Positions 5,745 through 42,722 of a DNA stretch of 64,000 bases are shown here, in pieces (position 1 is the first letter of the stretch; the number at the start of each line of letters is the position of its first letter). A program made the translations under genes and the position numbers. The notes below the pieces were generated by a model. That model was not told the origin of the DNA, made no database searches, and saw only the letters and a list, made by a program, of their open reading frames with translations. This stretch comes from Streptomyces lienomycini. GTDB lineage: Bacteria; Actinomycetota; Actinomycetes; Streptomycetales; Streptomycetaceae. Where the stretch lies: assembly GCF_027947595.1 (NCBI RefSeq), contig NZ_CP116257.1:4278001-4342000 (forward strand), written 5' to 3'.

Positions 5745-6588
5745 CCGCCCCGCACAAGGCCGGTGCCGCGACCGGCCCCCGCACGGGCGGGCAGCGGCGC
5801 CGCCGCCCGGTCCGCGGCGGGGCTCCGCTGCCGCTGCTCGTCCCCGCGCTCGTCGGCCTGGCGTTCCTGGTGCTTCCTCTCGCCGCCCTGCTGATCCGGG
5901 CGCCCTGGGGGAGCATGCCGGAGCTGCTGACCAGTACCGAGGTGTGGCAGGCGCTGCGGCTCTCGCTGATCTGCGCCACGGCGGCGACCGTCGTGAGCAT
6001 GGTGATCGGCGTGCCGCTGGCCTGGCTGCTGGCCCGGGTGGAGTTCCCCGGACGCGGACTCGTCCGGGCCCTGGTGACGCTGCCGCTGGTGCTGCCGCCG
6101 GTGGTGGGCGGTGTCGCCCTGCTCATGGCGCTGGGCCGCAACGGGGTCGTCGGGCGGTGGCTGGACTCGTGGTTCGGGATCACGCTGCCGTTCACCACCA
6201 CCGGTGTGATCCTCGCGGAGGCGTTCGTGGCGATGCCGTTCCTCGTCATCAGCGTCGAGGGCACCCTGCGTGCTGCCGACCCCCGCTACGAGGAGGCGGC
6301 CACCACCCTGGGCGCGTCCCGCTTCACGGCGTTCCGCCGGGTCACGCTGCCGCTGATCGCGCCCGGGATCGCCGCCGGTGCCGTCCTGGCCTGGGCACGG
6401 GCACTCGGCGAGTTCGGGGCGACGATCACCTTCGCCGGCAACTTCCCCGGCCGCACCCAGACCATGCCGCTGGCGGTCTACCTCGCCCTGCAGAGCGACC
6501 CGGAGGCCGCCGTCGCCCTCAGCCTGGTACTGCTGGCCGTTTCCGTCGCCGTCCTCGCCGGACTGCGCGACCGCTGGATGACCGCCTC

Positions 6589-6592
<4 letters not shown>
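5741..6592 (+). CDS. modB: Molybdate ABC transporter permease
   Basis: A 283-residue integral membrane protein, the channel subunit of the molybdate importer. Several hydrophobic helices are evident, for example LLVPALVGLAFLVLPLAALL near the N-terminus and LSLVLLAVSVAVLAGL at the end. The permease EAA loop that contacts the ATPase is EEAATTLGASRFTAFRRVTL. The GTG start overlaps the modA stop and the modC ATG overlaps this gene's stop (ATGA), so the three genes are translationally coupled. Confidence 0.93.
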
Positions 6593-7695
<1,103 letters not shown>

Positions 7696-39031: not shown

Positions 39032-39054
39032 CGTCCCCGGCACCCGCACGGCCT

Positions 39055-39092
39055 CCGGCCCCGGCACCCCGAAGGGGAAGCTCCGGGGCCGG
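39055..39092. terminator. Strong hairpin between convergent GH3 gene and RiPP operon
   Basis: CCGGCCCCGG (39055-39064) and CCGGGGCCGG (39083-39092) form a perfect 10-bp stem; the loop itself holds CCCC-GAA-GGGG. It lies 23 bp after the GH3 stop and 55 bp after the precursor-peptide stop coming from the other side. It looks like a bidirectional terminator without a T-tract. Confidence 0.75.
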
Positions 39093-39146
39093 ACCCGCCT
39101 GCGTCCGACCGGGTGCGGGGACGACCGGCCTTCCTCGCGCACGGCG

Positions 39147-39335
39147 TCAGGAATCACGCACCTCGGGGATGTCCGTCCCGCCCGAGTAGAGGGTGGCGGC
39201 GTGTACGCACCCGGGGTCGTCGCAGCCCGTGCGGCCCGGGTGGGCGTCGGTGTCCGGCACGGCCAGCAGTTCCGCTCGCAGGGAGCGTATCCGGGCCTCA
39301 ACGCCCCCGGGCCTTCCCGGCACTTCGTTCCGCAT
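39147..39335 (-). CDS. Candidate RiPP precursor peptide, 62 residues
   Basis: A 62-residue peptide encoded last in the operon, its ATG 38 bases inside the end of the radical SAM gene. The N-terminal part (GGVEARIRSLRAELLAVPD) is helix-like and could be the leader. The C-terminal part carries GCDDPGCVHAATLYSGGTD with Cys38, Cys43, His45 and Tyr50. Radical SAM/SPASM cyclophane synthases join aromatic (including His) side chains to a residue two positions on, so His-Ala-Ala or Tyr-Ser-Gly are possible ring sites. I recall a cyclophane RiPP family named for an HAA motif (HaaA), and this may belong to it. Position and size support the precursor call more than sequence does. Confidence 0.65.
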   Translation of the reverse strand: MRNEVPGRPGGVEARIRSLRAELLAVPDTDAHPGRTGCDDPGCVHAATLYSGGTDIPEVRDS

Positions 39336-40443
39336 CGCGCATCAGTCCTTCCATGAGGAGTTGTCTGCTGTTGCGGCAGAAGACGGTCTCGGTGACGTCC
39401 AACCGCCCCGTCTCGAAGTACTTGTTGGCGACCTGCCCGCCCCGGCAGTAGGCGAACAGATCGCATACCGCGCGACAGGCGTCGATCCCGGCGAGGGCCT
39501 CGGCGACCCAGGGGGTCTCCTGGGCCCGTGCCAGGCGGGCCGCGAGCCCGTGCTCCCGCACGTCGCCGATGGTGAAGGGGCCGTGGCGCGGGGAGGAGAA
39601 GCCCGCGAGGTCCGGCCCGACGGGCACGACCTGACCGTCCCAGGTGACCATCGGCAGCGGATCGACCGGCTGCTCGGCCCACTGCCCGGCCGTGCCGGCC
39701 AGCTCCGCCCTGACGTACCGCCGGACATGCTCCACGTCGCGCAGGCGCATGCGCGGGTCGGCGCGTCCGCACGCGGCCAGCGCGGCCCAGAAGTCGGCGA
39801 CGTTCTCGTCGTCGTGGACGGCCCGGGTGTTCAGCCCCTTGCGTTCCACCAGGTTCACGCCCAGGACGCGGCAACCGAGTTCGGTGAACCACCGGTGCAG
39901 TTCGGCCGCTTTGCGCGGAGTCGGGTCGGACACGACGGCGATGGCGCCGAAGGCGATGCCGTGCTCCTTGAGCAGCCCGACACCGCGCAGCGTGCGGCCG
40001 GTGGCGTCTCGGCCGCCGCGGTCCACCCGGCCACCGCCGGCCCCGGGGCCGGGGTCGGGTCCGTCGACACTGACGGAGACCTCGATCCCCCGCCCGCGGA
40101 ACAGCCGGCACCACGCTTCGTCGACGAGCGTGGCATTGGTCTGCACGGCGTGCCGTACGGGATGTCCGCGCCCCGGCGGGAACCGGTCGAGCAGTGCCGT
40201 CAGGCGGGACACGCCCGCGGCGAGCGGCTCCCCGCCGTGCCACAGCACGGTGACCGGGTGCTGTTCCGACCATGCGCCGACGGTCTGTGCGACCGCGTCG
40301 GCGACCTCGTCCGACATGACGCGGGCAAGACCGCGGGCGGGCAGGTAGCAGTAGCGGCAGTCGAGGTTGCACAGCGGAGTCGGCTGGAGGAGCACGAGGG
40401 AACTCGTCCGCGCCAGCCGGGCACGGGGCGACGGCGCCGTCAT
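39298..40443 (-). CDS. Radical SAM/SPASM peptide maturase
   Basis: A 381-residue radical SAM enzyme. The [4Fe-4S] motif CNLDCRYCYLP (Cys25, Cys29, Cys32) follows LVLLQPTPL. VLWHGGEPL and VSVSVDGPDPG are core strands. The C-terminus has a SPASM-like cysteine set: GIDACRAVCDLFAYCRGG, NKYFETG, and a final Cys in ETVFCRNSRQ. This layout matches GrrM/FxsB/cyclophane-forming maturases rather than lasso or sactipeptide enzymes. Its ATG overlaps the upstream NB-ARC gene's stop (ATGA), and its own end overlaps the 62-residue peptide gene. It probably cross-links that peptide. Confidence 0.88.
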   Translation of the reverse strand: MTAPSPRARLARTSSLVLLQPTPLCNLDCRYCYLPARGLARVMSDEVADAVAQTVGAWSEQHPVTVLWHGGEPLAAGVSRLTALLDRFPPGRGHPVRHAVQTNATLVDEAWCRLFRGRGIEVSVSVDGPDPGPGAGGGRVDRGGRDATGRTLRGVGLLKEHGIAFGAIAVVSDPTPRKAAELHRWFTELGCRVLGVNLVERKGLNTRAVHDDENVADFWAALAACGRADPRMRLRDVEHVRRYVRAELAGTAGQWAEQPVDPLPMVTWDGQVVPVGPDLAGFSSPRHGPFTIGDVREHGLAARLARAQETPWVAEALAGIDACRAVCDLFAYCRGGQVANKYFETGRLDVTETVFCRNSRQLLMEGLMRDAERSAGKARGR

Positions 40444-42722
40444 CGGCCGCCCCCCTCCCCTGTTGGTTCCCCTTCCCGGTACCCGGCGGCGGTGAGGCGT
40501 TTCAGCGCCTCGCTCTCGCCGTGGCGGTCGGCCAGTTCGCGGTAGAGGCACAGGGCCTGGACGTGTGCCTCGACGGCCTCCTCGCGGCGGCCCGCGCGCC
40601 CGAGGGTGACGCCGAGGTCCTGCGTCGCGATCGCCTGACCGTGCCGGTGGCCGAGATCCCGCTGCTCCCGCACCGCGAGCCGGTGGGCGTCGACGGCCTC
40701 GTCGAACCGGCCCAGCGCGCACAGGGCGACCCCGAAGTCGTTCCACGACGTGGCGAGGCGTTCACGCTCCCCCAGTTCCTCGAAGACCGCACGGGCGGTG
40801 GTGTGCGCCTCCAAGGCCTCCTCCAGGCGCCCGGTCTCGCGGAACGCGCGCCCCAGGTTGTTCCGGGCGGTGGCCTCGCGTGCCCGGTCACCGACCGAAC
40901 GGAACATCGCGCAGGCCCGGGACAGGGCGACGATCGACTCCTCGCACCGGCCGAGCTTGAACCGGGCGCGGCCGAGGTTGTTCCACGTCGACGCCTCGAC
41001 CTGCGCGTCCTGGACCGCCTGGGCCAGCTCCCGGGCGCGCTCGTGGGCCTCGATCGCCTCGTCGAACCGGCGGGCTTCCGTCAGGGAGACGCCCAGCATG
41101 TCCCAGACCTTCCCCTCCCCGAGCCGGTCACCGCGCTCCCGGTGGATCCCGCAGGCGCGGGTGTGCGCCGCGACAGCCTCGTCGAGCCTGCGGTTGTGGC
41201 GCAGGGCGAGACCCAGGTAGCTCCACGCCCTGCCCGCGCCGGAGCCGTCGCCCAGCGCGAGCGCCGCCTGGGCCGCGCACCGGTAGACGGACACCCCGTC
41301 GTCGAAGTATCGCCGTCGGTCGAGATACTCGTAAAGGCTCAGTGCCAGTCCCAGTCCGGCCCGGGCGTGCACCGGGTCGGCCGCCCACAGGGCGCCGGAG
41401 ATGAGACCGGTGCGCTCGCGGTCGAGCCAGCTCAGCGCCTCCTCCCGGCCGTCGAATCCGGGAGAGGGGGCCCTGCCGGGGAGGTTGCGCACGTGCCAGT
41501 CGGCCGCCTCGGTCCGCCGCTGGTAGTGCGCGAGCAGCCGGGCCCGCGCCGCCGTGCCCTCCGCGCGCAGCGGCTCCTGTCGCGCCACCCGGTCCAGGGC
41601 GTAGGCGCGGACCAGGTCGTGCATGCTCCAGCAGCCCCGCACACTGCCGGGGCCGACCAGGTGGGCGCGCACCAGGACGTTCAGCTCCCGCCGCGGCGGG
41701 GTGGTCGCGCCGGACAGCACGGTGAGCGCCTCGTCGCTCGTCTCCTTCCCCGGTGCGAGCGCCAGGAGGCGGAAGAGGCGTGCGGGTTCCGGGCCGAGGC
41801 GGCGGTACGACAGGTCGAAGGCGGCCCGCACACCCCGCTCGCCGTCGTCCAGGTGGTCGAGGACGGTGGCGGAGTCGGCCAGCTCAGCCACCAGTTCCGC
41901 CACGGGCTTGCCCGGATCGGAGAGGAGCAGCGCGGCCGCGATCTGCAGCGCCAGCGGCAGATGCCCGCACAGCTCGCACAGTTTCTCGGCCCCGTCGGCA
42001 TCGTCCAGGACGCGCGGGTCCGCCGGGTCGGCGGTGCGCAGGGCCGCGCGCAGGACGTCCCGGGCCACCTGGGGCCGGAGGACGTCGAGGTGGAGCAAGT
42101 GCGCGCCGAGCTGTGGCATGGTGTCGCGCGAGGTGACCAGGACCCGGTGCGCGGGGTGCCCGGGCAGCAGCGGTCTGACCTGCCCGGGGTGCGAGGCGTT
42201 GTCCACCACGATCAGCACGCGGCCGCCTGCGCGGGCCCGTTCGGCGAGCATCGAGCGGTAGAGTCCGGCACGCTCGTCCACCGTGCTCGGTACGTGCGCG
42301 GCGGCCACTCCCAGGGCGCGCAGCAGGGCTTCCAGGAGCTGCTCGGGTCCCGCGGGCGTCTCGTCGTAGCCGTGGCAGTCGACGAACAGGGCGCCGGCCG
42401 GGAACCAGCCGCGTTCGCGTGCCGTGTGGGCGGCCCGTACGGCCAGCGCGGTCTTGCCCACGCCGCCCAGCCCGGCCACCGCGGTGACCGGGGCCGCGGT
42501 GCGGTGTGCGCCCTCGGGGGCCAACGCCGCGAGCAGCGCGTCCAGTTCGTCCTCGCGTCCGGTGAACTCGGCTGTCGCGGGCGGGAGCGCGTCCTCTACG
42601 TGGGGCATGGGTCCGTAATGGTGGTGATGCTCCACCTTCTTCCCGATCGCCTCGCCCCGGAACGTGCCCTGGCTGAAGTCGATTCGATCCCCGCCGTACG
42701 TGTCCCCGCTCACCCTGCCCAT
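40440..42722 (-). CDS. NB-ARC / tetratricopeptide-repeat protein of the RiPP operon
   Basis: A 760-residue STAND-type protein. A short N-terminal segment (GDTYGGDRIDFSQGTFRG, then EHHHHYG) precedes an NB-ARC ATPase: FTGREDELDALLAAL, Walker A GLGGVGKTAL (84-93), VLIVVDNASHP, and VLVTSRD. From about residue 500 there are at least six tetratricopeptide units with the spacing A-x-A-W-S-Y-L-G, E-A-I-E-A-H-E-R-A and so on. STAND proteins act as ligand-triggered switches. As first gene, coupled to a radical SAM gene, it may guide or regulate the peptide. The start could be ATG 42722 or GTG 42713. Confidence 0.88.
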   Translation of the reverse strand: MGRVSGDTYGGDRIDFSQGTFRGEAIGKKVEHHHHYGPMPHVEDALPPATAEFTGREDELDALLAALAPEGAHRTAAPVTAVAGLGGVGKTALAVRAAHTARERGWFPAGALFVDCHGYDETPAGPEQLLEALLRALGVAAAHVPSTVDERAGLYRSMLAERARAGGRVLIVVDNASHPGQVRPLLPGHPAHRVLVTSRDTMPQLGAHLLHLDVLRPQVARDVLRAALRTADPADPRVLDDADGAEKLCELCGHLPLALQIAAALLLSDPGKPVAELVAELADSATVLDHLDDGERGVRAAFDLSYRRLGPEPARLFRLLALAPGKETSDEALTVLSGATTPPRRELNVLVRAHLVGPGSVRGCWSMHDLVRAYALDRVARQEPLRAEGTAARARLLAHYQRRTEAADWHVRNLPGRAPSPGFDGREEALSWLDRERTGLISGALWAADPVHARAGLGLALSLYEYLDRRRYFDDGVSVYRCAAQAALALGDGSGAGRAWSYLGLALRHNRRLDEAVAAHTRACGIHRERGDRLGEGKVWDMLGVSLTEARRFDEAIEAHERARELAQAVQDAQVEASTWNNLGRARFKLGRCEESIVALSRACAMFRSVGDRAREATARNNLGRAFRETGRLEEALEAHTTARAVFEELGERERLATSWNDFGVALCALGRFDEAVDAHRLAVREQRDLGHRHGQAIATQDLGVTLGRAGRREEAVEAHVQALCLYRELADRHGESEALKRLTAAGYREGEPTGEGGGR

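Follow-up and report, generated by a model that had tools for sequence, protein, structure and literature searches.

A Streptomyces operon joining a STAND/TPR receptor-like gene to an AmcB-family radical SAM enzyme and a small peptide, with a receptor motif shared by a distant nucleosidase-like protein

The window considered here is a stretch of 64,000 nucleotides from Streptomyces lienomycini (contig NZ_CP116257.1, positions 4,278,001 to 4,342,000), and its element of interest is an operon of three minus-strand open reading frames (ORFs) encoding, in order, a STAND/NB-ARC protein with tetratricopeptide repeats (TPRs), a radical S-adenosylmethionine (SAM) enzyme and a peptide of 62 amino acids. 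Neighbouring genes share 4 bases at the first junction (ATGA, 40440-40443) and 38 at the second (39298-39335), so that the exact coordinates confirm the arrangement reported in the initial annotation, made from the sequence alone. Gene order is conserved: the overlap between the radical SAM and peptide genes is kept in 7/7 further genomes, with a length of 29 to 107 bases, and the STAND gene stands in front each time. The features of the operon, in window positions, are the following.

40440..42722, minus strand: STAND nucleoside triphosphatase (NTPase; NB-ARC/AP-ATPase) with C-terminal TPRs, 760 amino acids, ATG start, the receptor-like gene 1 (Pfam NB-ARC, AAA_16 and TPR_12; AfsR structures; motifs)
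42630..42698, minus strand: N-terminal motif YGGDRIDFSQGTFRGEAIGKKVE, receptor residues 9-31, common to PNP_UDP protein C-termini (motif searches)
40488..41240, minus strand: TPR region, residues about 495-745, candidate ligand-binding part with approximate boundaries (Pfam TPR matches, TPR structures)
39298..40443, minus strand: AmcB-family radical SAM peptide maturase, 381 amino acids, ATG start (NF041718, Radical_SAM PF04055, tree)
40348..40371, minus strand: radical SAM CxxxCxxC (C25, C29, C32; invariant in 31 aligned enzymes)
39376..39477, minus strand: C-terminal cysteines C323, C327, C333 and C356, one presumed auxiliary cluster (invariant in 31 aligned enzymes)
39147..39335, minus strand: precursor peptide, 62 amino acids, ATG start (peptide searches, alignment, pN/pS)
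39201..39224, minus strand: Cys/His box C38-x4-C43-x-H45 (alignment of relatives)
39171..39194, minus strand: putative core T48-L-Y50-S-G52-G-T-D55 (lowest pN/pS; duplicated in P0014, P0019 and L061)

The radical SAM enzyme scores 494 bits against the AmcB model NF041718 (residues 10-371), above the curated cut-off of 425, and is thus a member of the AmcB family, in agreement with the earlier idea of a cyclophane-forming maturase of ribosomally synthesised and post-translationally modified peptides (RiPPs). Its scores against other models are 203 bits for GrrM/OscB, 97 for the sulfatase maturases (cut-off 349), with which it therefore does not group, and 82 for FxsB (cut-off 370). A grouping with sulfatase maturases would, according to the initial annotation, have refuted its interpretation. 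The sequence CNLDCRYCYLP, previously noticed, occupies residues 25-35. The cysteines invariant among 31 aligned enzymes are C25, C29, C32, C112, C323, C327, C333 and C356, and, since four of them are C-terminal, a single auxiliary cluster is presumed. The SPASM-like cysteine set first proposed thus survives as these four residues, enough for one auxiliary cluster, together with C112, a weaker likeness than had been stated.

Enzymes of the type found in the window are present in 4/392 same-genus genomes, the window's included. Six named records also carry them, two of which are G016 and G345, making eight window-type genomes in all (G000, which is that of the window, G016, G345, G420 and G680-G683, with loci L061, L063, L064 and L066), and a genus sample around G016 gave 5/199, none of them new. 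The name sister-type is given to three others, G053, G144 and G425 (which is also L067). Of 122 loci compared, 17 belong to the window type or the sister type (11 genomes), and each of them has a STAND gene directly in front of the enzyme gene; L051 shows a weak STAND match, on the opposite strand, and none was found near the AmcB-like gene at the remaining 104 within flanks of 1.5 to 6 kb. A quick tree was built from 54 enzymes of these loci; in it, the eight window-type sequences form one branch (99) and the three sister-type ones another (100), and both branches join (8+3 rows) with a Shimodaira-Hasegawa-like approximate likelihood ratio (SH-aLRT) value of 88, under the 95 mark. All type labels together require 6 changes, the minimum possible, with labels assigned by the analyst; the canonical label covers 22 rows, of which L045 and L051 lack a canonical precursor.

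The peptide, which contains GCDDPGCVHAATLYSGGTD as originally described, retrieved five proteins when used as a query, and an alignment query retrieved 20; together with locus translations they give 25 rows, 24 of them distinct, including that of the window. A leader helix is combined in these precursors with a Cys/His box and with the core TL[YF][SP]G[GA][TS]. Both the leucine before the core aromatic (L49) and the glycine two residues past it, at i+2 (G52), are found in 24/24 distinct sequences, and the aromatic itself is Y in 19, F in 4 and C in 1 (P0019, which keeps an intact second copy, TLYSGGT). The counts at the other core positions are S 21 and P 3 at i+1, G 20 and A 4 at i+3, T 19 and S 5 at i+4, and D 14, E 8, N 1 and A 1 at i+5. 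Besides P0019, the core is duplicated in P0014 (TLYSGDT) and L061 (TLHSGDT) and, because the second copies of all three carry the core only, the duplicating unit is the core without the Cys/His box. The reading frame is conserved over the 24 distinct sequences, so that the other condition under which the initial annotation would have been refuted does not hold either. Across 8 loci, the ratio of non-synonymous to synonymous differences (pN/pS) is 0.63 for the part of the peptide gene that does not overlap the enzyme gene, and residues 49-55 give 0.23, both rough values in which high GC content lowers pS. The constancy of the peptide start, MRNE, may be forced by the overlap. No convincing second copy of the peptide was found in the window genome (best other match E 0.56). 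We hold with considerable confidence that the 62-residue peptide and the AmcB enzyme are a RiPP precursor and its maturase, and modification at the L-aromatic-x-G site seems rather likely.

The initial annotation had drawn attention to conservation around His45 and Tyr50 and to the HAA-motif family HaaA. The best conserved site is indeed the Tyr/Phe of L-[YF]-[SP]-G (Y or F in 23/24), and not His45, which is H in 22 and R in 2. The pair after position 45 is AA in 6, AV in 5, AS, PG and PT in 2 each, and one of seven others once each. In a HaaA-type triceptide, the enzyme would make a bond within HAA between His45 (at C2) and Ala47 (at its beta carbon). The window peptide does hold HAA, the STAND/TPR gene, radical SAM gene and small precursor recall HaaA/HaaB/HaaT, the ORF adjoining a true HaaT reads THAASLTW, and the HAA motifs on which HaaB and ScaB act acquire C2(His)-Cb(Ala) bonds, as described in PMC11002830. 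Nevertheless, the HAA triplet occurs in just 6/24 distinct relatives, the residue two past His is Gly in 3, and the His itself is replaced by Arg in 2 as stated. Moreover, a true HaaT was found in 1/296 genomes, where the order is HaaT, precursor, radical SAM enzyme (one HaaT locus examined) and the neighbouring enzyme is FxsB-type (428 bits, cut-off 370) and not AmcB (128 bits), with a best match to the window enzyme of 34% over 186 residues. The window STAND protein scores 321 bits against HaaT, far under the cut-off of 1125. Membership in HaaA/HaaB/HaaT was thus rejected, and HaaA-type chemistry at His45 is highly improbable.

The Cys/His box is itself almost as well conserved as the core, with C38 and C43 in 24/24 distinct precursors and, three residues before C38, an extra Cys (CxxC) in 22/24, replaced by Arg in the window peptide and its near copy P0004. 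This box suggests metal binding, which our model leaves unexplained and which counts against it. Alternatively, the peptide could bind zinc as a small protein of the CxxC-x4-C-x-H kind and regulate the STAND receptor unmodified, the radical SAM enzyme having another substrate. Ribosomal protein L32 is a zinc-ribbon protein. Two of the relatives, P0013 and P0020, are annotated with that name by one source (jgi), and lost ligands appear offset by nearby Cys or His (H32 in the window, Cys in P0017/P0018), an anecdotal observation. However, small leader-core peptides accompany AmcB genes at numerous loci (matches: 27 canonical, 69 Micromonosporaceae), the lowest pN/pS is that of the core outside the box, and it is the core that is duplicated without the box, all of which makes an unmodified zinc protein distinctly unlikely.

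Returning to the peptide as an AmcB substrate, the residue at i+2 deserves consideration. Known three-residue cyclophane enzymes bond to the i+2 beta carbon, according to PMC11002830. A triceptide precursor would be expected to have a conserved aromatic with a beta carbon at i+2 (Asn/Asp in AmcA), and at the core aromatic this position is Gly without exception; at His45, which is less conserved, the window peptide does have a residue other than Gly at i+2. The sister-type genomes, which encode a STAND protein, an AmcB enzyme and a peptide longer than that of the window, offer a second, unlike precursor type: ten distinct peptides share a leader L-[AS]-D-R-[IVM]-E-R-L-R-x-P-L and an invariant W-E-G (10/10), the W being the only core aromatic in 2/10. 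Canonical AmcA precursors (27 matches, some of them from one and the same place) hold 155 aromatic positions in their last 40 residues, with N/D at i+2 in 115 (W-D-N 54, F-D-N 45 and W-D-D 7 among these), K in 31 and Gly in 2, and 69 Micromonosporaceae AmcB precursors show F-E-N, F-[YF]-N and W-N-N, and also W-N-H and H-F-E. The STAND-linked branch therefore differs from both by Gly at i+2 of its best conserved aromatic, so that the usual i+2 beta-carbon link is impossible there. As judged from these sequences, its presence in two unlike precursor types suggests a chemistry other than the beta-carbon cyclophane in part of the AmcB family. Two facts weigh against this argument: 8/10 sister-type peptides have a further aromatic with a non-Gly i+2, where a standard ring is possible, and HAA offers a possible site of linkage in the window peptide itself.

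The window operon thus resembles AmcA/AmcB in its enzyme family, in one four-Cys auxiliary set and in a small precursor, encoded downstream, whose leader helix is short, and differs from it in other respects. Canonical precursors have FDN/WDN repeats with N/D at i+2, and in many loci a conserved gene of ~225 amino acids with terminal NDLS-type repeats follows shortly past AmcA (e.g., L001, L005, L009, L011, L012, L042-L044, L046-L050 and L052-L059), whereas the window operon is headed by a STAND gene, its precursor has Gly at i+2, and the follower gene was not seen in any of the STAND-linked loci read. The AmcA reading of the precursor was rejected on account of the Gly at i+2, while membership of the AmcA/AmcB enzyme family stands.

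The STAND/TPR partner proposed as the first gene is borne out by Pfam matches to NB-ARC (24.0 bits, cut-off 23.5), TPR_12 (109 bits) and AAA_16, and by a Walker A motif GLGGVGKTAL, LIVVDN and MHDLVR. The AfsR structures 8k60/8jke match residues 46-442, the NB-ARC part, and the AfsR model gives 309 bits, far under its cut-off of 1430. These likenesses, and the general knowledge that many RiPPs are secreted, would fit a modified peptide that is exported to act on other cells as an antibiotic or signal, with the STAND gene as an AfsR-like cluster-situated regulator. On the other hand, no DNA-binding (SARP) domain is found among the Pfam matches of the receptor, flanking genes differ among relatives, the N-terminal motif is common to PNP proteins instead, and, as the initial annotation had observed, there is no protease or exporter within the three-gene operon. 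An exported product is accordingly very unlikely, and the intracellular signal or defence role first envisaged remains plausible.

Such a role has precedents, since radical SAM-modified peptides and AP-ATPase/TPR proteins have been predicted as partners in actinobacterial conflict systems by Kaur et al. (PMC7159879, eLife 2020 e52696). The FxSxx/VMAP systems outlined there resemble the window operon in a radical SAM-modified peptide and an AP-ATPase with TPRs; the window operon differs in having no metallopeptidase or vWA gene, in its radical SAM family and in its scores against FxSxx_TPR (130 bits, cut-off 300) and FxsB, which are both under the cut-offs.

A candidate effector came from the start of the receptor, which in window-type genomes reads approximately G-D-x-I-D-F-x-x-G-x-F-R-G-x-x-[IV]-G-K-K-V-E-H-H-H and differs in the three sister-type receptors. 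Its N-terminal 56 residues, used as a query in 61 genomes, gave matches in four, including a short ORF in the window genome. This ORF encodes a protein of 282 amino acids matching PNP_UDP_1 (PF01048, 127 bits), hereafter PNP, with the C-terminal end YGGDHIDFRGGTFHGPVTGKGDGRR.

G000:C1:1473760-1474608 (L172:5261-6109), minus strand: PNP_UDP protein with the C-terminal motif, near genes that look by eye like two-component and sugar-transporter genes

A motif model of 13 rows matches only two proteins of the window genome, the receptor and this PNP, at both E<=0.001 and E<=0.5. Among 199 same-genus genomes it has a match at E<=0.001 in 17, and in 16/17 (the exception is G119) on a PNP C-terminus; the motif sits 1-9 residues from the C-terminal end of the PNP_UDP protein. 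Three other matches in the window genome (L164, E 2.7e-5 with the 56-residue query; L177, E 1.6; L178, E 2.2) are not listed by the motif model and were set aside. A motif-bearing PNP is present in 8/8 window-type genomes and in 14/197 others of the 199-genome sample, part of which may lie outside the 392-genome enzyme screen. Fisher's exact test gives p 4.7e-9 for the eight, and 4.6e-5 when only four genomes are taken (G000, G016, G345 and G420), both uncorrected for kinship. In addition, the PADLOC 'Effector' model of the PN superfamily matches the window-genome PNP with 61 bits.

The motif might be the ordinary conserved start of actinobacterial STAND proteins, with no signalling meaning, its co-occurrence with PNP arising from kinship; it is found in further STAND genes, and the statistics ignore the species tree. 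Yet it is matched in 17/199 genomes only, nearly always with one match on a PNP C-terminus, and the window-type PNPs are scattered on a PNP tree of 22 rows, where the labels need 6 changes, a chance-like number (shuffled mean 6.7; 198/500 shufflings as low). From these scattered positions it follows that the eight window-type genomes do not share one inherited PNP. A motif devoid of signalling meaning is therefore unlikely.

Several observations speak against the link between the co-encoded receptor and PNP. The statistics, as said, carry no correction for kinship. No motif match was found in the sister-type genomes G053, G144 and G425 or in the genome of L070 and, because those sister-type genomes lack it, the effector link fails for the STAND-linked branch as a whole. 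The motif also occurs in STAND genes without any radical SAM gene and, in 6/7 other window-type genomes (G016, G345, G420, G680, G681 and G682), a STAND gene with the motif is within 2 kb of PNP. This adjacent gene is the more obvious partner in those six, so PNP may serve it; the motif of the adjacent partner is weak in G345 (E 0.009) and G682 (E 0.002), and in G683 no adjacent motif-STAND gene is listed. Other observations favour the link. In the window genome, the receptor and PNP are the sole matches of the motif model, and the 11 kb around PNP hold no STAND gene. The receptor and PNP genes are 2.85 Mb apart there, in a single contig of 7.86 Mb.

The pairing of a motif at a receptor N-terminus and an effector C-terminus in adjacent genes is seen for paralogous STAND/PNP pairs elsewhere. 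In 11/21 other motif-PNP genomes a long frame bearing the motif is within 2 kb of PNP, and the ten of these 11 frames that were read (all but that of G170) are STAND-like. Among the 14 non-window-type genomes, such a frame is at <=2 kb in five (G033, G118, G136, G143 and G170), a motif-STAND gene is at 7-8 kb in four (G001, G049, G107 and G198), and none was found in five. In G016 and G033, the motif-ended PNP gene and a STAND gene that begins with the motif are arranged divergently. Single frames apparently holding PNP, motif and STAND were also seen at L220 (G016:C14) and L239 (G680:C11).

Short motifs of this sort are known from amyloid signalling by NLR (nucleotide-binding, leucine-rich repeat) proteins and their effectors. 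According to the sources (PMC9815663, PMC12261475, PMC8086366), adjacent NLRs have motifs in common with PNP_UDP effectors in fungi and with Bell effectors in bacteria, and amyloid behaviour has been demonstrated for some. The likeness of the Streptomyces motif to bacterial BASS and to fungal PUASM with PNP_UDP (PMC9815663, PMC12261475) lies in its shortness, in its place at the start of the receptor and the end of the effector, in the adjacency of the two genes elsewhere than in the window genome and in the PNP_UDP effector. Its sequence pattern differs from PUASM (FxGxGxQxxGxGxF); in the window genome, moreover, the effector gene is not adjacent and the receptor carries an attached RiPP pair.

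Taking these data together, it is proposed, at about even chances, that the operon forms an NLR-like receptor module coupled to a RiPP, in which a modified intracellular peptide regulates a receptor acting via a nucleosidase effector. Thus, the AmcB-family enzyme would recognise the leader helix of the precursor, around E-x-R-I-R-S-L, and radical SAM chemistry at the conserved aromatic of T-L-[YF]-[SP]-G-[GA]-[TS] would create a bond within the peptide. Given the invariable Gly at i+2, the bond would not be that of a standard three-residue cyclophane, and its partner might be the Gly alpha carbon or another neighbour rather than an i+2 beta carbon. Since the operon has no protease or exporter, the modified peptide would probably remain in the cell, where the STAND NTPase encoded with it could sense it through its TPR part. 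The receptor would then oligomerise and signal through its N-terminal motif to the PNP_UDP nucleosidase-like effector with the matching C-terminal motif, whose activity might harm or arrest the cell.

The strength of these steps is unequal. That the peptide regulates the receptor is a balanced judgement, and whether it activates or restrains it cannot be told; that the receptor acts through PNP is equally a matter of even odds. Templated assembly by the shared motif, suggested by analogy, is a more tentative idea that we would place somewhat below these. The boldest version, joining a new cross-link from the aromatic ring to the Gly alpha carbon (i+2) in Y/F-S-G and W-E-G cores with a peptide that gates a bacterial NLR and a prion-like motif that templates a distant nucleosidase effector, is a long shot. 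The motif that the receptor shares with a predicted nucleosidase hints that the peptide steers an immune-like or cell-death switch. Considered as a whole, the interpretation of the initial annotation is partly supported, and its underlying observation is confirmed.

STAND/TPR genes and orphan RiPP maturases are numerous in Streptomyces and other multicellular bacteria, and to our knowledge what these proteins sense and what these maturases make is mostly unknown. The present locus couples one STAND/TPR gene to one RiPP maturase and names a candidate effector, so that the purpose of the modified peptide becomes testable; if the motif link is true, it would be a bacterial counterpart to the fungal PNP_UDP/NLR amyloid pairs. 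Each of the ingredients is known, and what would be new is their combination, the Gly-at-i+2 precursors of this AmcB branch and the motif shared by bacterial STAND and PNP_UDP proteins. Among the open-licence PMC papers listed, none was found on this operon type, on Gly-at-i+2 AmcB precursors or on the bacterial STAND/PNP_UDP motif.

Concerning its genomic setting, the operon is flanked by a divergent ROK regulator upstream and a convergent GH3 glycosidase downstream. These flanks are not conserved, and L061, L064 and L065 have different flanking genes that, by eye, are common to one another. No syntenic empty site could be named through the flanking ROK gene in 31 genomes, the ROK genes of relatives being only 44-48% identical. 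Relatives of the enzyme were absent from 72,556 plasmid records at E<=1e-30 and, in viral contigs, 24 pattern matches gave 0 confirmed, so that a reading of the operon as a mobile element was rejected. In a scan with a defence library, the operon proteins matched a generic TPR model with 43.5 bits and, weakly, a viperin model with 26.6 bits. The scan around the operon found no consensus promoter or terminator, and what had been called a strong terminator is reduced to the following hairpin, whose folding energy is ordinary for its composition (z -1.5; 17/200 shuffles fold equally well).

39054..39093, minus strand: GC-rich hairpin past the operon end, no U-run, approximate ends (sequence scan, folding test)

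Finally, other AmcB-like loci present precursors of different kinds. In Micromonosporaceae (L071-L140), a near-invariant AmcB precursor ending in CAWNHFENIPTFYNWNNRPR is found downstream of the radical SAM gene, at about locus positions 6001-7100 (69 matches in 70 loci). Such constancy, unusual for a RiPP, suggests a housekeeping role; in 4/6 of the loci viewed, the genes before the radical SAM gene look by eye like purine-synthesis genes. At L041:2342-3333 and L069:7088-7578, AmcB-like enzymes are followed by two overlapping ORFs, the first of which carries a leader-like helix. Together, these ORFs look like a phage-tail intramolecular chaperone (S74-like) domain split in two. Another precursor type, with a leader of about R-I-x-A-[SR]-R and IFGW near its end, lies directly past the radical SAM gene at L038, L039, L040 and L070.

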